Origin: Subtercola vilae
Lineage (GTDB): Bacteria; Actinomycetota; Actinomycetes; Actinomycetales; Microbacteriaceae
Reading direction: 5' to 3'
NCBI RefSeq assembly: GCF_004923255.1
Contig: NZ_QYRT01000040.1
Location: 1 to 35,287, forward strand
DNA length: 35,287 bases
Within the stretch, counting starts at the first letter, position 1. Each line of letters opens with the position of its first letter. A program made the position numbers and the translations under genes. The notes beneath the pieces were generated by a model. It did not search any database. It was not told the origin of the DNA and saw only the letters and a list, made by a program, of their open reading frames with translations. Positions 1-10,316 of the stretch are shown in pieces.

Positions 1-44
1 CCCCCCCCCTTATATCCATCGGCCTCCCGTCTACCCTTGGTGAC

Positions 45-1034
45 ATGTCGCTTCCCGAGATTCCGTCTTTTAGCTCAAGCTCTGATCAAATCTCGGCGAC
101 GCCATGGCCTGAGGGAACCGTCTGGCACTACACGACAGGGGCTGGACTTGCGGGCATGGTCGGCGACAACGTGCTGTGGGCCAGCGCCATGGCCCTCATG
201 AACGACTTCCGCGAACTGCGCACCGGGAAGAAGATATTCAAGCAACTGCGCAAAACCCACGTCGACGATGTGGAGGAGCAGATTAGGGGAGACTTCGACG
301 CCATGATTCGAACCGCCTCGAAGATCGACCCGTACAGAACGTTTGTCGCTTGCGCTTCCGAGCAGCCGGACCGTCTCACCATGTGGCGGAACTACGCGGG
401 CGAGGTCGGGTATGCCGTGGCTCTTGATAGTACGAAACCGCTTTACATGCGGCGTCAACGGCCGATGACCGAGGAAAAGATCGCTGCTTCGGGCCTCCTC
501 GACGAAGAGAGCAAGCAGCGTCTGCGCGACGACGCAAACTCCGGTTCACCGAAGTTTGAATGGACACGCGTTGTCTACAAACCCGACGCTCAATACTTGG
601 CGGCCTGGAAGGTGCTCCTTGATATCGAGGCCGCCGCCGCCGCTAGTGCCGAAGGCCGGCAAGCTAAGAAAGGCGAGTTGTACGCAATGCTGGACATGGC
701 CACCGTGATCTCAGCAATCAAGGACCCCGCGTTCGAGGACGAAACCGAGACGCGACTCGTGTGCAACGCTGCGATGTACGTCGACCTCATGTACCTCAAA
801 CACCGCCCAGGAAAATACGGGATGATTCCCTACGTCGAACTCGGACTCCCGAAAGACCCAGGACAGCTAGTCGGCGACGGCCCCGAACCAATGGGCAATC
901 TGCCGATCATAGAAGTGATCATCGGACCAACCCGCTATCCGAAAGACGCCTGTGCAGGCGTCCGTGAACTCCTTCGCTCCCACGGGCACACGAACATCCC
1001 CGTCACCGCGAGCCGAATTCCATTCCGCCCCTAA
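45..1034 (+). CDS. DUF2971-family protein
   Basis: This is a 329-residue soluble protein. An N-terminal WHYTTGAGL stretch (residues 27-35), an LWAS...MNDFREL segment (44-58) and an FVACASEQPDRLTMWRNYA-type block (100-118) followed by GYAVALD match the layout of DUF2971 proteins. These typically read YHYTS-GL, LND-E, then FS-DLSQWR-YG. The family has no firmly established function and is often seen in accessory or defence islands. The H-Y-T...N-D-x-x-E pattern recalls ADP-ribosyltransferase-like folds such as DarT, but that is only an inference. The start ATG lacks a convincing Shine-Dalgarno. It stands alone, with the recombinase convergent downstream. Confidence 0.7.
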   Translation: MSLPEIPSFSSSSDQISATPWPEGTVWHYTTGAGLAGMVGDNVLWASAMALMNDFRELRTGKKIFKQLRKTHVDDVEEQIRGDFDAMIRTASKIDPYRTFVACASEQPDRLTMWRNYAGEVGYAVALDSTKPLYMRRQRPMTEEKIAASGLLDEESKQRLRDDANSGSPKFEWTRVVYKPDAQYLAAWKVLLDIEAAAAASAEGRQAKKGELYAMLDMATVISAIKDPAFEDETETRLVCNAAMYVDLMYLKHRPGKYGMIPYVELGLPKDPGQLVGDGPEPMGNLPIIEVIIGPTRYPKDACAGVRELLRSHGHTNIPVTASRIPFRP

Positions 1035-1140
1035 GCACGCTCCAAGGTCAAACCCATCTCGATTTCAACAGCGCCGAGACGGAGCAAGAGCCTTAGCGTG
1101 GGATATTTCACTTTTTCACAAGCCGCCCCCCGAAGTCACT

Positions 1141-1737
1141 TCACGACACTGCTGAGTTGAGCCCGAGCTTCTCAAATCGTCGGTAGAGCGTCGAGCGACT
1201 CATCTTCATATCGCGGGCGACCGAGGCAACCGACTCACCACTGTCGATGAGCTTGTAGGCCTTTTGGATCTGCGAATCGGTGAAGCTCTGCTCGCGTCCG
1301 CCGAGGTCTTTTCCGGCGGCCCGCCGTTTGGTGATCGAATCGTTAACTCGTTCCTTCTTGATATCCAGCTCCATCTGAGCCAGGGCAGCCATGACCGTGA
1401 ATACCATCTGACCCATGGGCGTGCTGGTGTCGACGTTGAGGCCGCCGAGATTGAGAACTCGGAGCTCGGCGCCTCTGGTTCGGAGATCCTCGGGCAGTGC
1501 GAGCATGTTCACTGTCGATCGACCGAGACGATCCAGCGTCGTGACGACGAGGGTGTCGCCGGGGTGCAGTGCGTCGAGAGCACGATCGAACTGAGGCCGG
1601 CTTGCCAGTGCCCCTGATACGCCGTGGTCGACGTAGAGGTCATCTCGTCGAACGCCGGCAGCTAGAAGGTCGACCTCTTGCCGGTCTGTCTGCTGCATTT
1701 TCGTTGATACTCGCGCGTAGGCGATCAGCTTGCTCAT
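1141..1737 (-). CDS. serine recombinase, resolvase/invertase family
   Basis: This is a 198-residue small serine recombinase. The catalytic domain starts with YARVSTKMQQ, in which Ser11 is the nucleophile and Arg9 its neighbour. The DRLGR motif (69-73) supplies active-site arginines, and the long E helix runs through about 118-140. A C-terminal helix-turn-helix of the HTH_7 type (about 155-190, with SVASVARDMKMSRSTLYRR) binds half-sites. Length and domain order fit Tn3-type resolvases and Pin/Hin invertases, not the large phage integrases. The upstream DNA holds a matching set of inverted half-sites, which favours a resolvase acting in cis. It probably resolves multimers or cointegrates of the element. 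It is unlikely to be the integrase, which for a tRNA target is usually a tyrosine recombinase. Confidence 0.9.
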   Translation of the reverse strand: MSKLIAYARVSTKMQQTDRQEVDLLAAGVRRDDLYVDHGVSGALASRPQFDRALDALHPGDTLVVTTLDRLGRSTVNMLALPEDLRTRGAELRVLNLGGLNVDTSTPMGQMVFTVMAALAQMELDIKKERVNDSITKRRAAGKDLGGREQSFTDSQIQKAYKLIDSGESVASVARDMKMSRSTLYRRFEKLGLNSAVS

Positions 1738-1753
1738 CTGGTTCTCGTCACCT

Positions 1754-1886
1754 GTCGCACAACTCTTCTTAGATACGTCTATTTTACGAGAAGTTGTGCG
1801 ACGTATTTGTGCGCCACTTTTTTGCGCGAAACTCGATCACATTGTGTCGCATCGAGATCTGTCGCATATCTCTAGGGATATGCGAC
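1754..1886. other. putative res site of the serine recombinase
   Basis: Upstream of the recombinase, copies of GTCGCA or its complement occur at 1754, 1797-1802, 1846, 1861 and 1881-1886. The pair 1861-1870 / 1877-1886 is a perfect 10-bp inverted repeat (GTCGCATATC) around a 6-bp centre, 26 bp in total, the usual size of a crossover site. The pair 1754-1764 / 1792-1802 is an 11-bp inverted repeat (GTCGCACAACT) with a 27-bp spacer. With the crossover-like site distal and the accessory sites next to the gene, the layout resembles Tn3-type res. It probably also serves as the gene's operator. A further half-site lies at 2030. The rest of 1887-2099 shows nothing recognisable. Confidence 0.65.
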
Positions 1887-2099
1887 TCGGCATCGTCTCG
1901 CAGATAATGCACTTTGCCGAGAATCTTTATCGGAGGGGGGGCAAGTCCTTCTTTTTTGGTTGAGTATTCGATTTAGGTGCTCCTTTTGTTGATTAGGTGA
2001 TGGGGGCCGTTACTTTAGGCTCGCGCGCAGTCGCAACGTTAGAACCGGAGCAGGAGCAGACGAATTGATTGTGGTCTGTTGCGGGTGAATGTTCGCTGG

Positions 2100-3047
2100 T
2101 TACAGGGGGACATCTGCACATATTCGTGAACCTGGGTTCGCGAGGACCCACACCGGCCAGCTCTGCAACATGGCAACCTTGTCGTCTCCGAGCTCTGAGA
2201 TGACGAGGTCGAGCTCATTCACGTCCTTGAGCAGTATCAGCAGGCAGGCTTCCAGTAATCCGGCTTGCGTGTCATCCCTGTTCAGAGAGCGCCGCGCTGC
2301 ACGAATGTCGCGTCGATCCGCGTCGCTGAGCGTCCCCAAACGGTGCTGAATCTGCCACCAGTTGATTCGATGTATGAGCGAGTCTGGATCCTCCCCCAAC
2401 AACCACTTGCAAAGGTCGGTGGATCCTTGGAGCAGATAGGCGCGGTGGTGCTCTTCACTTGCCGAATCTGCGGCCGAGAGAAGTTGGAGCAACATCAGGT
2501 TGGCCTTGTTGAGCGCCGCGGAGCGATCCTCAAGCGCCACGTAGGCGGCCACAATGCCGCGCAATCTCAGATTTAGAACGGAAGCCATATCTTCCGACGT
2601 CATGGCCTCGTACACTGTTCCCCATTCCATCGGCTCTGGTGAGCCGCTCTCGTCGAGTCGGTAGATGCGGAACCGGTCACGTTTAGTTGGATCGAATGGA
2701 TCGACGATCTGCCAATAGCCTTCTTCCTCGGCTGGCATGACGATCACCATGATTTTGTACACGCCGAGCGCGATGTCATATCGTCCGGTCCCATCCGAGG
2801 TCCCTCGCACTGGATGATCCTGAAGAACTCCCTCATGTAGAGCGAGGAGCATTCGTTTCGTTTTGTCGTCAATCTCAAGAGTCGAGGTCAGGTCGTCGTC
2901 GATGCCGAACTCATCAAACAATTCGATCAGGCGGGCGAGCTCAGCGCGGACGCTTTGCAATTCGGCTTCCATTTTCGGATCACCATCATGACGTTCGTGA
3001 GTGACGCCGCCGATGACCAGCGCGTTCCCGGCGGCGGACGCGAGCAT
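2100..3047 (-). pseudogene. unknown protein gene with a probable 5' frameshift
   Basis: The open frame encodes 315 residues of acidic, mostly helical protein with no family I recognise. It has a short helical segment near residues 26-50 and a plausible beta-rich region (about 90-135) containing IALGVYKIMVIVMP. The ATG at 3047 has no ribosome-binding site. The same frame stays open upstream, reading KVGTTLNLTREGSFREQAKNFDF, back to about 3150, but without a start codon. One base out of frame, coding begins just after AGGAG (3176-3180) and reads ILVQLAEGLNFDS. Adding one base near 3128-3133 would join the two. I infer a single-base deletion, so the gene is probably broken. A downstream start at Met26 (MEAELQ) would still give a shorter protein. 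Confidence 0.55.
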
Positions 3048-3480
3048 GAAATCGAAGTTCTTGGCTTGTTCCCGAAACGAGCCTTCGCGCGTCAGATTGA
3101 GGGTCGTGCCGACCTTACCGTCGGCGTCCTTGAGTCGAAGTTGAGGCCTTCAGCGAGTTGCACAAGGATCGTGTTCTCCTAATGATCGATGTTGCAGTTG
3201 AACTGCCTGAACAGCCGCACGACCGGCACTGGGGGTACAACCTCGGCAAACGCATCGGCGTCGGCTCTGGTGCGCTCTACCTATTCTTCAGCGCCTTCTC
3301 GACGAACCTCTATAGGGTCAGTCTTTGTGTTAGGTAGTCAGCGAGGTCTTCCTGGTCGCGGCTACCCATAGGTGCGCTCCGCGATCATCGTGGCGGAACG
3401 CTCTACGAGTTCCGCCGGCTTGAGCTTGTTGTCCTAGGAAGCGCTAACCTTGCCTCATACGGGGGAAGGCGCAGGGCGGA
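3048..3480 (-). other. decay zone with remnants of minus-strand coding
   Basis: No intact gene is visible here. On the minus strand several short protein-like frames follow each other and are cut by stops. One ends at 3179 (33 codons, 3179-3280, ending FRQFNCNIDH). Another, starting at an ATG near 3370, reads MGSRDQEDLADYLTQRLTL and then a stop, followed in the same frame by RFVEKALKNR. A third upstream ends ELVERSATMIAERTYG, its stop overlapping that ATG. Together with the frameshift in the following gene, this suggests a small decayed operon. The last 20 bases (about 3462-3480) carry the GGGGAAGG ribosome-binding site of the plus-strand gene. Confidence 0.35.
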
Positions 3481-5472
3481 ATGGTCGATGTTCTACAGGA
3501 GAAGTCTGCAGAGTTCGAAAGCGAAGAGGTTCGGGTTGCTTCAGGCTTGGATTACCAAGCATTTTGGACCACGGATGCATCCAGCGGTTGGCTTGACCAA
3601 GCACTGGGCCAGGCTGCTGTTTGGGTCCGGGAGCGGCTTGGACTAGACGTTGATCTGTCGCAAGATGGCGAAGTCGCAAATGGCGACCGCAGCAGACGTG
3701 TACAGGTGCTGCACCGACAGGCTGGGCGCGATGTTGGCGTGCGGCTGCGAGCTTGGAATACAAATAACGGCACCACTTTCATTGTCACCGTCTTAGCTGT
3801 CGATGGCCCCAGCGGTGGGTGGCTGCTGGTACAGGCAAGCTCATCAGATCGATCTCGAAGAACAGCCAAGCCTGCCGTAGCAGACGCAATTTTGAGCGTC
3901 GTCGATTTTACCGATATCGGGCCCTTACGCACCAACGCTCAACACATCGCGCTTAGTCAACTCGATGAACTCGAGGAGCTAATCAACAATTCTGACCGCA
4001 GGTTCCCTGTGATCGTTGCCGCGCCGATAGACGGGGTGGACTTTGATCGGTGGCTTGAGGCTGTGAACCGGTGGACTCGCCACAGCGCGGGAATCGCCCA
4101 CGTTGTCTCTCTGGACCCGCAATCTGCCGACGAGTTCTCACACAGGCATGGTCGGCGAGCAGTACAGCCAGCAACACTTCGGACTTACCCACCGGGCGCA
4201 GACCTCGCCGACCCGGCGGTGGAACAAACTTCACGGTGGTTGACGCCCCGCGCACTGACTGGCGACGACCATAAGATCGCACGCGTTATTGAAGCTTTCG
4301 TTCGCCAATACCAAGTTACCCATCCGGTTCCGCTTCCTCCGCCTGTCAGGGAATGGTCGCGTGCTTTCGACAGGTTCGCAGCTCAACAACTTCGTTCCGC
4401 GGTCAGCCCCACCTCCGTCACCTTGCAAGCACGCGTTGCAGCGCGCCAGGCCGCCCGGAATCTGCAGAAATCGATACTGTCAGATCAATTAGAAGAGCTT
4501 GCAAGTGACTTCATCGCGGTTCCCAGCCGGCCAGACGTACCTGATCGCCTTGACGCCCGGGTTGTCTTCTTGCAAGAGCAACTTGCAGCGAGCGATCAGG
4601 CGCGCATGCGGGCCGAAAGTCAGCTTGAGCATGTTCAAGAGTTTCTTTCTTTGTCGGACCTCGAGGAACCCGCTCTGTTGGAACTGCTCGACGCTGCTAC
4701 TCAGGCACAGCCAGACAGTGGCGCCATCGCTCAATTGCTCAGTGATAACGATGACCTGCGAAACAAGGTCAATGAGCTGGAAGACGATCTTCTAGTCGAG
4801 CAGGTAAATCATGGCGAACTGAGCACAGAGCACGGGCGCCTGGAGGTCTACTACGCAGCGCTAACGAGAGAAGCTGCCTTCCTGCGTTCAAAGGTTGCAG
4901 AAAATGATCCGGCAACCGCCTACGGTTGGGTTGATGACGGTGGACCACCCAACCCACTGGGCGAATGCCCTCCAGGATGGGACGCTCTCATTGCGGATCC
5001 GCGACTCGTGGAACACGGCCTGATATTTACTGGCAACCAGCGCAGGGTAAGAGACGTCATGAGCATCGACATGGATGGAGCCGGACTGCGGGCCGCCTGG
5101 GATTCGCTGGGAACTCTGGCCTCATATCGCGCCGCTCGGCTCAATGAATCTTGGGACACGAATGTTCATTCGTTCTGTGAAAGTGGACCATCGAAAGCTT
5201 TCCATGTACCACCCAATAAGCATGCTCAGGACGAAACGAGTGGCACCAGGCAGGACAAGCGTCTGGCGGATTATCGTCTCCTCCCTATTCCCACAACAGT
5301 GGACACCTCCGGTCACGTCTATATGTGGGCTCACTTTAAGCCGTACAGCTGGTCATCCCAACAGAAATTGCGAATCCATTATTGCGACCAGGTCACCACG
5401 GACAAGAGGATCTATATCGGCCACATTGGACATCATCTTCCCTCTGCATCAACCGACAAGGTTCACCGGTAA
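3481..5472 (+). CDS. large coiled-coil protein with conserved N- and C-terminal domains, function unknown
   Basis: This is a 663-residue soluble protein. Residues 20-145 look alpha/beta. Residues 175-258 form a second alpha/beta unit beginning FPVIVAAPIDG and containing RTYPPG (234-239). Residues 320-475 are helical and heptad-like (coiled coil). The C-terminal part (500-663) is globular and contains YRLLPIPTTVDTSGHVYMWAH and RIYIGHIGHHLP. I recall the latter type of ending (IY-GYIG-HL) from uncharacterised actinobacterial proteins, but cannot name the family. The N-terminal unit resembles residues 49-130 of the convergent gene that ends at 5550. It could be a sensor/effector pair member in a defence-like locus, but no catalytic motif is certain. 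Confidence 0.7.
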   Translation: MVDVLQEKSAEFESEEVRVASGLDYQAFWTTDASSGWLDQALGQAAVWVRERLGLDVDLSQDGEVANGDRSRRVQVLHRQAGRDVGVRLRAWNTNNGTTFIVTVLAVDGPSGGWLLVQASSSDRSRRTAKPAVADAILSVVDFTDIGPLRTNAQHIALSQLDELEELINNSDRRFPVIVAAPIDGVDFDRWLEAVNRWTRHSAGIAHVVSLDPQSADEFSHRHGRRAVQPATLRTYPPGADLADPAVEQTSRWLTPRALTGDDHKIARVIEAFVRQYQVTHPVPLPPPVREWSRAFDRFAAQQLRSAVSPTSVTLQARVAARQAARNLQKSILSDQLEELASDFIAVPSRPDVPDRLDARVVFLQEQLAASDQARMRAESQLEHVQEFLSLSDLEEPALLELLDAATQAQPDSGAIAQLLSDNDDLRNKVNELEDDLLVEQVNHGELSTEHGRLEVYYAALTREAAFLRSKVAENDPATAYGWVDDGGPPNPLGECPPGWDALIADPRLVEHGLIFTGNQRRVRDVMSIDMDGAGLRAAWDSLGTLASYRAARLNESWDTNVHSFCESGPSKAFHVPPNKHAQDETSGTRQDKRLADYRLLPIPTTVDTSGHVYMWAHFKPYSWSSQQKLRIHYCDQVTTDKRIYIGHIGHHLPSASTDKVHR

Positions 5473-5508
5473 GCACTCACGCGACTTTGGTTCACACACA
5501 GGGATGGC

Positions 5509-5540
5509 CCTCTGAATCGCAATGAGATATTGCTCAGAGG
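5509..5540. terminator. bidirectional hairpin between convergent genes
   Basis: CCTCTGA (5509-5515) pairs with TCAGAGG (5534-5540), and inside it GCAAT (5519-5523) pairs with ATTGC (5529-5533) around a GAGAT loop. It sits in the short gap between two convergent stop codons. It has no T-run, so it could act as an imperfect terminator or an mRNA 3' end in both directions. Confidence 0.5.
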
Positions 5541-5549
5541 AGTGGATGC

Positions 5550-6896
5550 TCAGGCAGCGTAATCGTCGTGCACCACCACACGAGAAAGCTCGATTCCGAC
5601 ACCGTCGAGCTTCCAGTAGTGAAGCCGTCGAGCACTCGGAGTGTTCTCCTCTAAGTAAGCGCGGTAACAGAGTGCGCCGTCTTCTCGGGTGACTGTGAGC
5701 GAGGCGCTGTTCAGTCGGAGCGCGTGCACGTTTCTCGCTGCTAAAGCTTCAGTTGTTCCGATCAGGACGTCGACTACGCACCTGAACGCTTTCATCTGTG
5801 AAGACCGGTCGAACCCTTCGACCGATTTGAAGAAATCGGGCCCGATCTCATAGGAGGGGAGCTCCTTCTGACCCTTCTCGGCCGCGGGTACACGCTCGAC
5901 CCAAGCTTCATATATGGCGTGTCGTACGGCTTCGTCGCTCGATGAGAACAGCTCGGGGCTCAGCGGGTTGGCCACCTTCTCGGTAGTGACTGGCCTTCTC
6001 CGACTGTTCAGATGCGCTCGATGAGCCGTTGTCTGTTCAGCAATCTTCTGTTTGAGGTTCGCGTTCTCGATCTTCAATTCGCGCAGGTCAGCGTCACTAC
6101 GCTGCCAGTACTGAAGTGACGAGCTGAACTTGCCCTGCGAAGCTAGTAGCATTTCGGCCACGCGCTCGGTTCGATCCTGTTCCAAGCGGATCCGCTCGTT
6201 CAGTTGCGTAATCGTGGCGTCGCGAGAGTCGATGGTTCGATCTCGCTCCGAAAGAACCTCTTCGAGAAGCGCGGGTGCAGTTGCCTCAGTTGTGATGTCC
6301 GGTGACGCCTCTCGCTCGGGATTCACGAGGGCCGGCTGCACCTCTAGCGGTGTATTCACGAGGGCCGGCTGCACCTCTAGCGGTGTAGCCACAACGGCTT
6401 TCGATGCGCTTGCAGCAATGACGCGCGCTGGTGTCCTTTGAGCGGCTACGGATGATTCGACCACCTCACGCGGCGACCTGTAAGCGAGCTTGAGAGCTTC
6501 CTCGATTAGTCGTGGCTGCTTACGTCGGGCGCTCTCGACATCCGGGGCAAGGAACAGCGGCGCCAGTTCTCTCTGTTTGGTCCAGGTGATACCGCGGGGA
6601 TAGATGCGGGCACCTCCGTTGAAGACGCTGAATTCCTGGGTGAACGCCTCAGTGAGTTTGAAGGTGAGATCCGGGTCACGGATTACGGCAACCTCACCCT
6701 TGTTTCCGATTTCGTCGGCGATCGCTTTAGGATCGAATAGAAGTCGGCCGTCAGACGTGGGAGTCACGACTACAACCACGACGTCGCGGCGAAAGTCATT
6801 CAGGCGCTGCACCAAGTCGATGGCGTCAAACGCATTCTTGATTTCGACCGGATCAGCCGAACCCCACAGCTCATTTTCATCGACTCGCTTAGACAT
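5550..6896 (-). CDS. coiled-coil protein sharing an N-terminal domain with the convergent gene
   Basis: From the start MSKRVDENELW this is a 448-residue protein; a longer version from 6929 is possible. I chose 6896 because it overlaps the preceding stop codon by 8 bases, as expected for coupled translation. Order of parts: an alpha/beta unit (about 38-119) starting DVVVVVVTPTSDGR and including GGARIYPRG; a linker with two copies of TPLEVQPALVN (about 171-192); a coiled coil (about 210-295); and a C-terminal globular part with FGVVV-like strands ending RVVVHDDYAA. The first unit aligns by eye with the YPPG unit of the 663-residue protein. It is the last gene of the minus-strand operon. Its function is not recognised. 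Confidence 0.7.
   Translation of the reverse strand: MSKRVDENELWGSADPVEIKNAFDAIDLVQRLNDFRRDVVVVVVTPTSDGRLLFDPKAIADEIGNKGEVAVIRDPDLTFKLTEAFTQEFSVFNGGARIYPRGITWTKQRELAPLFLAPDVESARRKQPRLIEEALKLAYRSPREVVESSVAAQRTPARVIAASASKAVVATPLEVQPALVNTPLEVQPALVNPEREASPDITTEATAPALLEEVLSERDRTIDSRDATITQLNERIRLEQDRTERVAEMLLASQGKFSSSLQYWQRSDADLRELKIENANLKQKIAEQTTAHRAHLNSRRRPVTTEKVANPLSPELFSSSDEAVRHAIYEAWVERVPAAEKGQKELPSYEIGPDFFKSVEGFDRSSQMKAFRCVVDVLIGTTEALAARNVHALRLNSASLTVTREDGALCYRAYLEENTPSARRLHYWKLDGVGIELSRVVVHDDYAA
6321..6386 (-). repeat. perfect 33-bp tandem duplication inside the coding region
   Basis: Positions 6321-6353 and 6354-6386 are identical. In frame they add 11 residues (TPLEVQPALVN twice) to the linker before the coiled coil, so the reading frame is kept. 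The perfect identity suggests a recent event or a slippage-prone, length-variable tract. Confidence 0.9.
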
Positions 6897-7155
6897 CGGT
6901 GTCCCCATTCCCCGGCTCCAGTTTGGCACGGGCCGCCCGCAACCAATTGCCTTTGATCAGTAACCGGTCAATTACAGATGTTCTGACTTGGCCTATGAGG
7001 ACGAACTCGTGCCCGGCCGCGAGCCTTCGTATTAGTTGCTCCCGCTCGTCGGGCGTCTTACCTTCAAACAACGGGGCCCTCTGATCGAGCGCTATAGCTG
7101 AGGGGCTTTCGGCTAGCTCGGTAGCTTTCTTCGGATTGCTCGTGGCATTCATCAT
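6889..7155 (-). CDS. small protein of unknown function
   Basis: This encodes 88 residues (MMNATSNPKKATEL...), with a helical middle (EGKTPDEREQLIRRLAAGHEFVLIG begins near residue 32) and a basic stretch (IDRLLIKGNWLRAARAKLEPG). The start at 7155 is favoured because its ATG overlaps the stop of a 30-codon frame upstream in an ATGA arrangement. A longer form from GTG 7221 is also open. Its own stop overlaps the start of the coiled-coil gene by 8 bases. It is probably co-translated with its neighbours as part of the 10080-5550 operon. No domain is recognised; a small DNA- or protein-binding partner is possible. Confidence 0.55.
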   Translation of the reverse strand: MMNATSNPKKATELAESPSAIALDQRAPLFEGKTPDEREQLIRRLAAGHEFVLIGQVRTSVIDRLLIKGNWLRAARAKLEPGNGDTDV

Positions 7156-7244
7156 TCGTCCCGGGTTATCGGAGCGCGTCTCTCGCGCTTCGCGAGAACT
7201 GTAAGCGCGAAATCGAAGCACTCATGAGAAGCTGCGTCGAGCAT
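7152..7244 (-). CDS. possible 30-residue protein, translationally coupled
   Basis: A short frame (MLDAASHECFDFALTVLAKR and onward, ending ITRDE) starts 10 bases after the antitoxin-like gene stops, behind GGAAG. It ends in an ATGA overlap with the next gene. It is too short to classify, and could be a real micro-protein or a leader that couples translation. Confidence 0.35.
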   Translation of the reverse strand: MLDAASHECFDFALTVLAKRERRAPITRDE

Positions 7245-7254
7245 TGCTTCCAGC

Positions 7255-7614
7255 TCACTTTGGCCAGTCCACGTCCGCTATTCCAATTGCAGGTTCACCG
7301 GTCTCGCGGAATGACTCGAGGGCATTCTTCCCTTGGATGTAATCAGCGAGGTCATCTCGCTCGCTCGCCTCGATGAGCGTAGTAACGGCACTTGCGACGA
7401 GCTCCGGTGGCGTGAGCGCCTCACCGTAGAGCACCCTGAGCCGCGCGAGTTGCTCTAGCGTGATCGTGACAGGGAAATGTGTCTCGACAGGCTGGATGAC
7501 GGCGAACGGCTTCCCATGATCGGTAATGAGAATCGGTTCGTGTCGCTCGAACACTTCGAACGTGTAACGCAGTGCATTCCGGACGAACTGCTTCCGGCTT
7601 ACTGACCTTGTCAA
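7255..7614 (-). CDS. Phd/YefM-like antitoxin without an evident toxin
   Basis: This encodes 119 residues from a TTG start. The segment SVSRKQFVRNALRYTFEVFE followed by RHEPILITDHGKPFAVIQP is the typical Phd/YefM N-terminal DNA-binding fold, whose usual pattern is ERGEPVVITRHGRPVAVL. The rest is a helical C-terminal part ending DVDWPK. The TTG overlaps the upstream TGA (TTGA), with GGTGAAG about 6 bases before it, so translation is coupled to the metallophosphoesterase-like gene. Phd-type proteins usually repress their own operon and neutralise a small toxin encoded next door. No RelE, Doc or VapC partner is visible, so the partner may be one of the phosphoesterase-like or unknown proteins, or be missing. 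Confidence 0.75.
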   Translation of the reverse strand: MTRSVSRKQFVRNALRYTFEVFERHEPILITDHGKPFAVIQPVETHFPVTITLEQLARLRVLYGEALTPPELVASAVTTLIEASERDDLADYIQGKNALESFRETGEPAIGIADVDWPK

Positions 7615-8027
7615 CGGTTCTTCACCCACACCACTTCGAGTCGATCGGATCTCGGTCGCGCGAGCTCCTCTGCAAACCTGGTAACGGCGTCCGTAGGGGC
7701 GATCAACTGGTGCCTGGTTCCGTGAGGCTGTAGCGGCAGTCGGTCGCTCTCCGCGTAAGCGGGTAGGGACAGGATGTCGTGTTCCCCCGGGGTAATGAAA
7801 ATGTCGACTCCGTGTCGGTGGCATTGGCCGTCCACGTCCTCGAGGTACCAGTTGCGTCCCCACTGGTCGATTTCGCCGCGTTCACCGGGCCCGAAGCCGT
7901 AGCTTCCGAAGTGAAATATGCGAGTGATGCCGAGAAGCGCCGCCAAACTAATATCGCGCTCGGCTTGGTAGTGGTTCCCGTTCCAGTCGCGGACGATCCC
8001 AACTTTTTCTTGTTCGGGGGCATCCAT
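7611..8027 (-). CDS. truncated metallophosphoesterase-like protein with lost metal ligands
   Basis: This encodes 138 residues that align with the first third of the metallophosphoesterase immediately upstream. KVGIVRDWNG matches KVLIAGDWHG, RIFHFGSYGFG matches TILHLGDFGIW, and DIFITPGEHD matches RILVTPGNHE. Each metal-binding motif is altered: Asn16 replaces His in DxH, Ser42 replaces Asp in GD, and Glu82 replaces Asn in GNHE. The C-terminal histidine motifs (HE, GHMH) are absent. It is therefore unlikely to be an active phosphatase, yet the frame is open, has a strong GGAGGAG ribosome-binding site and overlaps both neighbours. It may be a regulatory subunit, decoy or antitoxin partner, or a decaying duplicate. 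Confidence 0.7.
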   Translation of the reverse strand: MDAPEQEKVGIVRDWNGNHYQAERDISLAALLGITRIFHFGSYGFGPGERGEIDQWGRNWYLEDVDGQCHRHGVDIFITPGEHDILSLPAYAESDRLPLQPHGTRHQLIAPTDAVTRFAEELARPRSDRLEVVWVKNR

Positions 8028-8911
8028 CAGTTGCTCTCCTCCGACTCAGACCCCGGTCGATCTAGGTAGAGCTTCTCCACGTTGAGCGTGCGCCGCGGCC
8101 GCGCGCTGACGAAGGTAACCTGCAATTCTCGCCAGCTGAGATCCTGCAGGTTCAGTTCTCCAATATTCCCGGCCTGGTTATCACACCCGAGGGAGCGCAC
8201 ACGCTGACCGCTGGGAAGAGTGACCTCATCGGGGTTGTGCATGTGACCGTGAAAAGTCAGCTTCGGACGGGTTCCCTCCCAGACCCTGGTTACCTGCGCT
8301 CTGGACTCCGCGGAATAGGCAAGCGCCTCGGCAGGCCAGCCCATGGGGTTTCTTACAATTACCTCCTCCACCGCCCCGGTCCCGCCGTTGATCGCTTCGT
8401 GAAGCAGTAGAACATCTACGTCCCCGCTGGCTGCCGCGGCTTCGGCTTCTGCCTCTGTTGCCATTTCGGACTTGAACCAGTCGAAGCCCTCAAGGCGCTG
8501 CTGGTAGTCAATGCTCGCTGCGCCTCCGAAAGACATGAAAGACCTCCCGCCCAAGGTGAACCTAAATCCGCGCGGAAGCGCGAGCACGGACGCACTGAGC
8601 GGAACCGGCGCCTCCGGAAGGGTTTCGAAACCGGCGTCGAGGATCCTCCAGTCCTCGTGGTTGCCTGGCGTCACCAAGATTCGCTCGATACCGATCTTTT
8701 CGCACAAGTAGTCGGCAGCTTCGAGGAACCCTCGGTCACGTTCTCCCCAAATGCCGAAATCACCTAGATGGAGGATCGTCCTGATACCTGTTGTGTCGTT
8801 TTCAATCGCAGATAGGAAGACGGAGCGCAGCCAGTCGCGTGATCCATGCCAATCCCCGGCAATGAGAACCTTCGCCTCGCCGCCAGCAGTTGTGAGATCT
8901 ACTTCAGCCAT
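8027..8911 (-). CDS. calcineurin-like metallophosphoesterase
   Basis: This encodes 294 residues from ATG 8911. The start is chosen because ATGGCTGA overlaps the stop of the RHH gene; a form from 8923 is four residues longer. All metallophosphoesterase motifs are present: GDWHG (Asp20, His22), LGDFG (Asp51), GNHE (84-86), LLHE (His171) and HGHMH (221-225). These bind two metal ions and hydrolyse phosphomonoesters or phosphodiesters. The substrate cannot be read from sequence; nucleotides or nucleic acid ends are typical. There is no signal peptide, so it is cytoplasmic. Its gene lies between an RHH protein and its own degenerate paralogue, and overlaps both. Confidence 0.85.
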   Translation of the reverse strand: MAEVDLTTAGGEAKVLIAGDWHGSRDWLRSVFLSAIENDTTGIRTILHLGDFGIWGERDRGFLEAADYLCEKIGIERILVTPGNHEDWRILDAGFETLPEAPVPLSASVLALPRGFRFTLGGRSFMSFGGAASIDYQQRLEGFDWFKSEMATEAEAEAAAASGDVDVLLLHEAINGGTGAVEEVIVRNPMGWPAEALAYSAESRAQVTRVWEGTRPKLTFHGHMHNPDEVTLPSGQRVRSLGCDNQAGNIGELNLQDLSWRELQVTFVSARPRRTLNVEKLYLDRPGSESEESN

Positions 8912-9077
8912 GTCGTAATTCATCCTCGGTAGTTAGGGCGGGCTGCGCCTTGGCCAGGTAGTCATCGATGGCGGTGGAGACCACGTCGCGGAATCTGATC
9001 CCGTCCTGCTTGGCAATCGCCTCGACGACGTGAATCTGGGAGTCGATGAAATAGACGAACTTGTTCACTGTCGCCAC
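8904..9077 (-). CDS. ribbon-helix-helix protein (CopG/Arc-like antitoxin or repressor)
   Basis: This is a 57-residue protein from GTG 9077, preceded by GGAAAGAG at good spacing. The pattern NKFVYFIDSQIHVVEAIAKQ followed by GIRFRDVVSTAIDDYLA is the beta-strand, helix, turn, helix of Arc/CopG DNA-binding proteins. It begins 2 bases after the HAD gene stops, and its stop overlaps the start of the metallophosphoesterase (ATGGCTGA). Such proteins are usually antitoxins or autorepressors, so it may control this operon. Confidence 0.7.
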   Translation of the reverse strand: MATVNKFVYFIDSQIHVVEAIAKQDGIRFRDVVSTAIDDYLAKAQPALTTEDELRHG

Positions 9078-9079
9078 GG

Positions 9080-9715
9080 CTAGCTCTTTCCATCGATGAA
9101 CCGGCGTATCTCGTCCACTTGATCGAGCGTGAGACCTACTGTCGGGTTTGTCTCAATGAGTAGACGGCCACCCGCAGGTACCGGCCCACGAATGAAGTCC
9201 GGCCTCAGGAGTCGCGCTTCTCCGATGGCCACATCATCTACCCAGACGTACGCGGGGCGTCCCAGTTCGACTTGATGCTCAATAAGCGCGCGTAGCTTCC
9301 AATCGGATGCGTAGGGATGCGTTCTTTCGATGACGTAGCCACCCGAAAGTAGGCCCCGCAGCGGACCTTCTATAAAAAGGTCGACATCGCGGCCCCAAGT
9401 TGTCAGCCATGCGAGGGCTACATTAGGCCGTTGGACTAGCTCGTCAAGTGCACGAACTACCTCGAGGTCGACATGGATTGGGAAGGTTCCGCGGCTCTCG
9501 CGAAGAACGACGAGATCTGCAGAAAGAGTTTCGTTCACTCGGTTTGTCGTATTTGGTAGCTGGTTTATCACCCCATCAACATCTAGAATCAGCTGGATGA
9601 TTGAACGTTCCGGCGGCAAGAAAGGTCGTTGGATCAGAGCATGCACAATCGACGGCTCCCAAGTTTGGACATTGATGTGGGGATCCGAGTTCGTTTTCGT
9701 CGGTCGAAAAATCAT
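9080..9715 (-). CDS. HAD-superfamily phosphatase, RNA-repair HAD type
   Basis: This encodes 211 residues. Motif I is LILDVDGVIN (nucleophile Asp45, acid/base Asp47), motif II is LAWLTTW (Thr105/106), Lys140 is a likely motif III, and VWVDD (160-161) is motif IV. The compact form with W-TTW and VWVDD resembles the HAD domain named after Swiss Army Knife RNA-repair proteins. In that family a role in removing phosphate from nucleic-acid ends has been proposed. The N-terminal 38 residues before the core are extra, and the start lacks a clear ribosome-binding site, so a later start is possible. It lies in the operon with the RHH protein and the metallophosphoesterase, giving two different phosphatase folds side by side. 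Confidence 0.75.
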   Translation of the reverse strand: MIFRPTKTNSDPHINVQTWEPSIVHALIQRPFLPPERSIIQLILDVDGVINQLPNTTNRVNETLSADLVVLRESRGTFPIHVDLEVVRALDELVQRPNVALAWLTTWGRDVDLFIEGPLRGLLSGGYVIERTHPYASDWKLRALIEHQVELGRPAYVWVDDVAIGEARLLRPDFIRGPVPAGGRLLIETNPTVGLTLDQVDEIRRFIDGKS

Positions 9716-9753
9716 CTAAATGATCGCGTTAGACGAAGTTGAATCCAGGACGA

Positions 9754-10080
9754 TCAGGATTTAGCTCTGCTAAAGAACGCGCGCGCTTCGCGAGGGGACG
9801 TGCCCAATATTTGGGCCAAGCGAAACCAGTTCAATTCGCCCGTTGGACTCGAGTGTCGAACGTCCTCGATGAAAATCGCAATCGCGCTCAGGGCGATGGC
9901 TTTCGCGACTTCCGCGCGTTCGACACGAACCAATCCACCACTCGACAGATACACGAGACGTTCGACCACAAGATCAACGTCCGCCTCCAGCTGCCAAGAG
10001 CTGGAGATGACGGAGGCGACAGTTGCGAGTTGGTCGTCCATGGACAACAGGGTCGCGGCACGATTGGGGATCGATGGCAT
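9754..10080 (-). CDS. small helical protein of unknown function, first gene of the operon
   Basis: This encodes 108 residues from ATG 10080 (MPSIPNRAATLL), chosen because AGAGGA sits about 6 bases upstream. The ATG two codons earlier is too close to it. The sequence is mainly helical, with an alanine/isoleucine-rich stretch (EVAKAIALSAIAIFIEDV) and a C-terminal FRLAQILGTSPREARAFFSR that could be a helix-turn-helix-like segment. I recognise no family. It is the island gene nearest the attachment site, a place often used for excision or control proteins, but this is inference. Confidence 0.6.
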   Translation of the reverse strand: MPSIPNRAATLLSMDDQLATVASVISSSWQLEADVDLVVERLVYLSSGGLVRVERAEVAKAIALSAIAIFIEDVRHSSPTGELNWFRLAQILGTSPREARAFFSRAKS

Positions 10081-10123
10081 GGTCATTCCTCTGTGAGTAA
10101 TGCCGCCGCCGACCCCGGGGCGT

Positions 10124-10150
10124 AAGACTCTAAATATTAGCCTTAGTCTT
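10124..10150 (-). promoter_or_regulatory. inverted repeat and possible promoter of the minus-strand operon
   Basis: AAGACT (10124-10129) and AGTCTT (10145-10150) form an inverted repeat. On the minus strand it encloses TAATAT, a fair -10 element, about 50 bases before the first gene. No good -35 is visible. TTAGTCTTT recurs directly at 10143-10151 and 10279-10287, the latter just before the tRNA fragment, so these could also be arm-type or excisionase sites of the element. Confidence 0.35.
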
Positions 10151-10290
10151 TATTCACGCGCTATCTACACAGGGCGGCGAGAGGCGGCCGCCTTCGGTGT
10201 TATTCGGAGTGGACAAACCAAAGTTGCTGATCAGGCGCTCATTGAACCGAGCCTGGCCGAACTAAACCGCTGATATCTTTAGTCTTTTGT

Positions 10291-10316
10291 TCTTGGTTCG
10301 AGTCCAGGTACCCCAG
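10291..10316 (+). other. attachment-site tRNA 3' fragment, probably tRNA-Gln
   Basis: CTTGG (10292-10296), loop TTCGAGT and CCAGG (10304-10308) make a perfect T arm. It is followed by TACCCCA, the 3' acceptor strand, and discriminator G at 10316. No anticodon or D arm lies upstream. A terminal A72 (implying U1-A72) with G73 is characteristic of bacterial tRNA-Gln. The fragment borders the island and is followed by a terminator, as in an element inserted into a tRNA gene. Confidence 0.8.

Follow-up and report, generated by a model that had tools for sequence, protein, structure and literature searches.

An intact metallophosphoesterase and an overlapping half-length homologue with altered metal-binding motifs in Subtercola vilae

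Introduction

The regulatory B-subunits of the eukaryotic DNA polymerases are long-established parts of replication, and their partner is an unrelated enzyme, the polymerase. These subunits carry an inactive calcineurin-like phosphodiesterase fold, which is active in the DP1 protein of archaeal PolD, and they set a precedent for the principle of an inactive phosphodiesterase fold serving in regulation (PMC4996933). In the literature on bacterial metallophosphoesterase (MPE) pseudoenzymes we found no report of a pair composed of such an active and an inactive member, and the one match on catalytically inactive MPE paralogs in operons concerns a mycobacterial cAMP phosphodiesterase; among the matches listed for bacterial pseudoenzymes in general, none is on MPEs by title. 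Here we describe two adjacent genes in a 35,287-nucleotide stretch of Subtercola vilae DNA, referred to as the window, in which an intact MPE (P0001) is followed by a half-length homologue that has lost metal ligands (P0002).

Organization of the locus

The genes lie on the minus strand and follow one another in the order of a HAD_SAK_2 phosphatase-like gene (9080..9715; PF18143, 35.1 bits against a cut-off of 27.5), which is upstream of the MPE and runs in the same direction, a small 57-aa frame that appears ribbon-helix-helix-like by eye, is without Pfam match, and overlaps the MPE start (8904..9077), the intact MPE of 298 aa (8027..8923), the short homologue of 138 aa (7611..8027), and a Phd/YefM-like gene of 124 aa that starts from a GTG at 7629 (7255..7629). 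An earlier note on this DNA had placed the pair at 7611..8911; the MPE frame runs to 8923, and 8911 is an internal ATG at Met5, an alternative start. The note's description of two adjacent, overlapping homologous genes was borne out by an overlap of one base (TGATG) and by a BLASTP match between the two proteins (E=5e-8, 33% over 85 aa), and so was that of an open short frame with a ribosome-binding site, as a GGAGG ends 10 nt upstream of its ATG. At the other end, the GTG start of the Phd-like gene and the 3′ end of the short gene overlap by 19 nt. GC content by codon position is similar in the short gene (0.67/0.43/0.70), the MPE (0.64/0.46/0.68), and the Phd-like gene (0.66/0.41/0.65).

GC content is 56-60% in the leftmost 10.3 kb of the window, compared to 62-70% to the right, and this low-GC island (1-10300) contains a serine recombinase (1141-1737) and a DUF2971 gene (45-1034) and ends near a glyoxalase-like gene. 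The latter was matched in four of seven compared genomes of the genus (L093, L094, L095, L097); G003 and G006 gave no match, and the contig of G011 stops there and is hence uninformative. The thioredoxin-reductase-like gene next to it has matches at E<=1e-100 in 11 of 12 genus genomes, its own included. We read the locus as accessory DNA adjoining core genes. Two large genes of the island (3481-5472 on the plus strand and 5550-6929 on the minus strand) gave weak PADLOC matches to HEC-07, the former also to NsnC, and in a Microbacterium locus (L025) an MPE has both a resolvase and a relative of the 5550-6929 gene in its vicinity.

The intact MPE and its family

P0001 is an ordinary member of the calcineurin-like phosphoesterases of phrog_1649 and PF00149, which occur in actinobacterial genomes, plasmids, and phages. 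It scores 46.8 bits against PF00149 (gathering cut-off 21.5) and E=1.3e-26 against phrog_1649, a family matched by all 31 rows of our alignment A4, P0001 among them. In the alignment motifs I-V are complete (GDWHG, GDFG, GNHED, LLLHE, GHMH), in agreement with the earlier claim that the first gene keeps all its metal motifs. Full MPEs of this kind are commoner than the short gene, with matches at E<=1e-15 in 38 of the 398 family genomes, a count that includes P0001 and a fragment in G003. In a profile comparison with solved structures, lariat-debranching enzymes came closest (E=2.6e-6), the match covering the C-terminal half.

Tandem full-length MPE pairs were observed at L068:901-2563 and L018:3965-5962, one L018 member reading GNLD in motif III with the His lost. 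Single-ligand changes are also present in other MPE relatives (L024:5983-6786, L041:1507-2358, L046:1471-2307, and L101:4917-5768; GGFG, GDWE twice, and GNRE), so that the window is not the only place where ligands have been lost.

HAD_SAK_2 (PF18143) is named in Pfam as the “HAD domain in Swiss Army Knife RNA repair proteins,” and its members lie both upstream in the window and near related MPEs. A profile seeded with the HAD_SAK_2 gene of the window recovered HAD_SAK_2-like frames around 12 of 48 distinct MPE sequences, within the flanks that were fetched, corresponding to 10 places with the window included (9080-9715, L019, L011, L064, L065, L067, L025, L068, L018, and L060), where they sometimes overlap the MPE. 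Among the 40 MPE sequences whose flanks extend 1 kb or more in each direction, eight have such a frame within 2.5 kb; the 32 loci without an MPE yield a single case, L074, and this locus belongs to the window. Six of the nine places outside the window were checked against Pfam; all six matched PF18143, five of them above the cut-off. The MPE and HAD_SAK_2 genes possibly form a two-phosphatase cassette, and these neighbours, together with the lariat-debranching structures, give a hint that nucleic-acid ends may be the MPE substrate. The putative RNA repair role of the HAD_SAK_2 genes comes from the Pfam name alone, and we found nothing in passages of PMC5512222 on calcineurin-like phosphoesterases beside HAD genes.

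The short protein and its lost ligands

A hidden Markov model built from 39 MPEs, P0001 among them, matches the P0002 frame at E=4.9e-12 among 13176 frames. This match and the BLASTP alignment go beyond chance and make P0002, by sequence, a clear homologue of the MPE N-terminal half. The earlier note had described the second gene as truncated, with a ligand lost from each of three metal motifs (H to N, D to S, N to E), and the alignment confirms this: motif I has changed from GDWHG to RDWNG, where the Asp is retained and the His is gone; in motif II (GDFG to GSYG) the Asp is replaced by Ser; and in motif III (GNHE to GEHD) the His is retained and the Asn is gone. The C-terminal half, and with it motifs IV and V, is missing. 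Moreover, P0002 carries an extra insert of approximately 7-9 residues, within RGEIDQWGRNW, which is absent from all 31 MPE rows of alignment A3 and is conserved as RGEID-x-x-GRNW between the two known copies, as is a tail at residues 97-125.

No family was matched by P0002 in Pfam, NCBIfam, or PHROGs (E up to 1) or in PADLOC (E up to 0.1). It falls below the gathering cut-off of PF00149, the copy in G003 is likewise without any Pfam family, and solved structures searched with a profile of the two short proteins yielded no credible match (best E=0.075).

Distribution of the pair

The short gene is present in two of 12 genus genomes, and two of the 10 without it are less than 90% complete. A search with P0002 in 298 genomes at E<=0.01 matched 10, namely its own, G003 (56% identity over 128 residues, E=1.6e-35), and eight weak ones with 30-39% identity in frames of 266-734 aa. 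A two-row profile matched seven of 398 family genomes, strongly only in the own genome and G003, the other five being longer MPE frames (264-315 aa); in samples that overlap this one and each other, it matched, among 396 order genomes, nothing beyond the own copy and a 271-aa MPE frame, and the own copy only among 296 class genomes. The two-row profile had no match in viral_contigs, and P0002 alone had none in genome_contigs, viral_contigs, or plasmids. In phages, 59 records were matched by P0002, none over 80% of the query, and the matches listed (20 of 59) fall under genes annotated as phosphoesterases, metallophosphatases, or esterases.

Close relatives of P0002 outside the genus were not found in the sampled genomes. 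A six-frame scan of 102 fetched loci, many with flanks of only about 1.5 kb, revealed no other half-length ligand-less MPE partner; it did recover tandem full-length MPE pairs (L018, L068) and one frame-broken single gene (L037). The active/inactive pair is rare. The earlier note had proposed to look for the same pair in other genomes; of the two genus loci with the short gene, only one has an intact MPE.

A probable relic of the locus in a second genome

In G003 the MPE tail, the short gene, and the Phd-like gene are collinear with the window, and the locus lies about 1.2 kb from the same thioredoxin-reductase-like core gene in the opposite relative orientation. Its MPE consists of the last 48 codons only, 38 of them identical, and the open stretch before the homology is without a start codon. 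The short frame is open for 229 aa, past the stop of the window gene, because the stop position has changed, and the Phd-like frame has no start ahead of a TTG within the homologous part. Since the MPE is reduced to 48 codons, the Phd-like start is missing, and the short frame overruns its stop, the G003 locus looks like a relic, where the short gene has persisted longer than its putative partner. An IstA/IstB-like transposase pair, recognized by eye, lies a few kb from this damaged locus (L058:12744-14749). The G003 protein is the more diverged of the two (branch of 0.89, compared to 0.60) and has lost the Trp of motif I and the His of motif III, a divergence that relaxed constraint after MPE loss would fit, in this one case only.

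The survival of the short and Phd-like genes side by side where the MPE is gone raises the alternative that P0002 works with the overlapping Phd-like gene, as a DNA-binding or antitoxin-type pair, and that the MPE is merely in the same operon. The Phd-like gene occurs in the same two genomes as the short gene (two of 149), and its pairwise dN/dS (omega) is 0.333 (72 codons, LRT 10.1); by co-occurrence it is as good a candidate partner for P0002 as the MPE. Its family assignment is weak, however, the match to TIGR01552 being 21.4 bits for a 202-aa frame, barely above the cut-off of 20.8, and that to PF02604 being 22.5 bits, below the cut-off of 29.8. Nor does its start survive in G003, no toxin family was recognized in P0002 (Pfam, NCBIfam, PHROGs, PADLOC), and the MPE tail has an omega of 0.118 (48 codons, LRT 26.5), so that selection acted on the MPE as well during much of the time since the split. 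On this evidence we regard a Phd-type pairing as rather doubtful.

Selection on a probably non-catalytic protein

Selection was estimated as pairwise dN/dS (GY94/F3x4, own code) from one pair only, the window and G003. The short gene has an omega of 0.173 (dN 0.36; dS 2.1, near saturation) with a bootstrap range of 0.03-0.36 (60 resamples) and an LRT against 1 of 43.6, and its differences by codon position are 42/38/72 over 133 codons. These shared codons contain no stop in G003, and the four gaps are each a multiple of three. Thus neither a dN/dS near 1 nor stops and frameshifts in relatives, the two signs of decay named in the earlier note, were found, in that the omega is 0.17 and the shared part of G003 has in-frame gaps only. 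Shifted sense frames gave omegas of 2.7 and 2.9, and the antisense registers 1.2, 0.30, and 3.2; the 0.30 register (LRT 20), which has five and two stops in the two sequences, is read as an echo of the sense frame. At the level of the two sequences, the comparison shows purifying selection on the short protein since the two species split, looser than in core genes of the same genomes (omega 0.028 for the thioredoxin-reductase-like gene and 0.042 for gltX, assigned by eye). Overlaps at both ends of the short gene would also be expected if the frame were kept solely to couple Phd-like translation to the MPE, its amino-acid sequence being irrelevant, but coupling would not hold amino-acid identity while third positions vary freely, and with the observed omega this explanation is highly improbable.

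Both copies encode the Ser of motif II as AGC, two base changes away from an Asp codon, and the Arg of motif I as CGC. A single ancestral inactivation before the split is the simplest reading of these common codons, and ligand loss probably predates the divergence of the window and G003, in which case constraint would have been exerted largely on a non-catalytic protein. Identity between the two is 15/33 in residues 1-33 with motif I, 9/13 in 34-46 with GSYG, 10/14 in the insert (47-60), 10/19 in 61-79, 5/17 in 80-96 with motif III, 20/29 in 97-125, and 3/13 in 126-138. As to an origin of the short gene by copying of its neighbour, a maximum likelihood tree (102 columns) joins the two short proteins by a long shared stem and keeps them apart from the P0001 group; a tree in which they join P0001 is not rejected (p-AU 0.367), nor are two other placements (0.196 and 0.203), the groups for this test having been chosen after the tree was seen.

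Alternatively, the short gene may be what is left of an ancient tandem MPE duplicate, now in slow decay after losing the C-terminal half and the metal site but not yet interrupted by a stop. It is missing from 10 of the 12 genus genomes, the G003 locus is partly destroyed, the omega exceeds that of core genes, and a GC-rich frame can stay open by chance: in neutral drift simulated with substitutions only, to the observed third-position divergence of 0.54, all 133 codons stayed free of stops in 1.5% of 400 runs, and neighbouring distances gave 2-3%. Such a remnant is nevertheless improbable in view of the low omega with its LRT of 43.6 and the third-position excess, the in-frame gaps, an inactivation that apparently preceded the split, so that the protein was already dead over the period for which constraint was estimated, and the better conservation of the insert and residues 97-125 than of the old motif I and III regions. 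Of the earlier proposal of a conserved pseudoenzyme, the part that sets simple decay aside is supported by the omega, the stop-free shared frame, and the apparently ancestral loss, whereas conservation together with the MPE is not, as G003 keeps 48 MPE codons.

A possible role for the half-length homologue

It is rather probable that P0002 is a selected pseudoenzyme of some kind. In the scenario we favour, one ancestral event would have abolished catalysis, and P0002 would then have been kept as a binding module, in which strand 2 with GSYG, the new insert, and residues 97-125 are held and the surroundings of the former motifs I and III are free to drift. P0002 would most likely act as a non-catalytic subunit that binds the co-translated MPE, or its substrate, and modulates its activity. 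We give an even chance to a non-catalytic half-MPE kept as a binding module, most likely as a subunit modulating the co-translated MPE. Translational coupling and common ancestry make the MPE a plausible candidate partner, the survival of the short gene without it in G003 speaks against this, and we judge the MPE as binding partner to be possible at somewhat below an even chance; regulation of the MPE by P0002 is plausible. More tentatively, and on balance unlikely, a mobile island may encode an MPE together with a half-sized metal-free mimic that would dock through the RGEID-x-x-GRNW insert and the tail and gate its activity.

Comparison with known systems

Compared to the MPEs of phrog_1649 and PF00149, P0002 is related to their N-terminal half and differs by ligand loss in all three motifs it keeps, by the missing second half, and by the 7-9 residue insert. 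Unlike the window, the HAD_SAK_2 loci elsewhere have no half-length ligand-less MPE partner in their fetched flanks. If the favoured scenario is true, the pair would be a small, tractable bacterial case of an enzyme turned regulator, half-length and selected after loss of its metal site, and would offer a handle on a functionally blank MPE group of actinobacterial chromosomes, plasmids, and phages; if docking takes place, it would represent a built-in inhibitor or allosteric subunit of a bacterial MPE, fashioned from one half of the same fold. The polymerase B-subunits are likened to P0002 by description; unlike them, P0002 is accessory, half-length, and encoded beside an active MPE.
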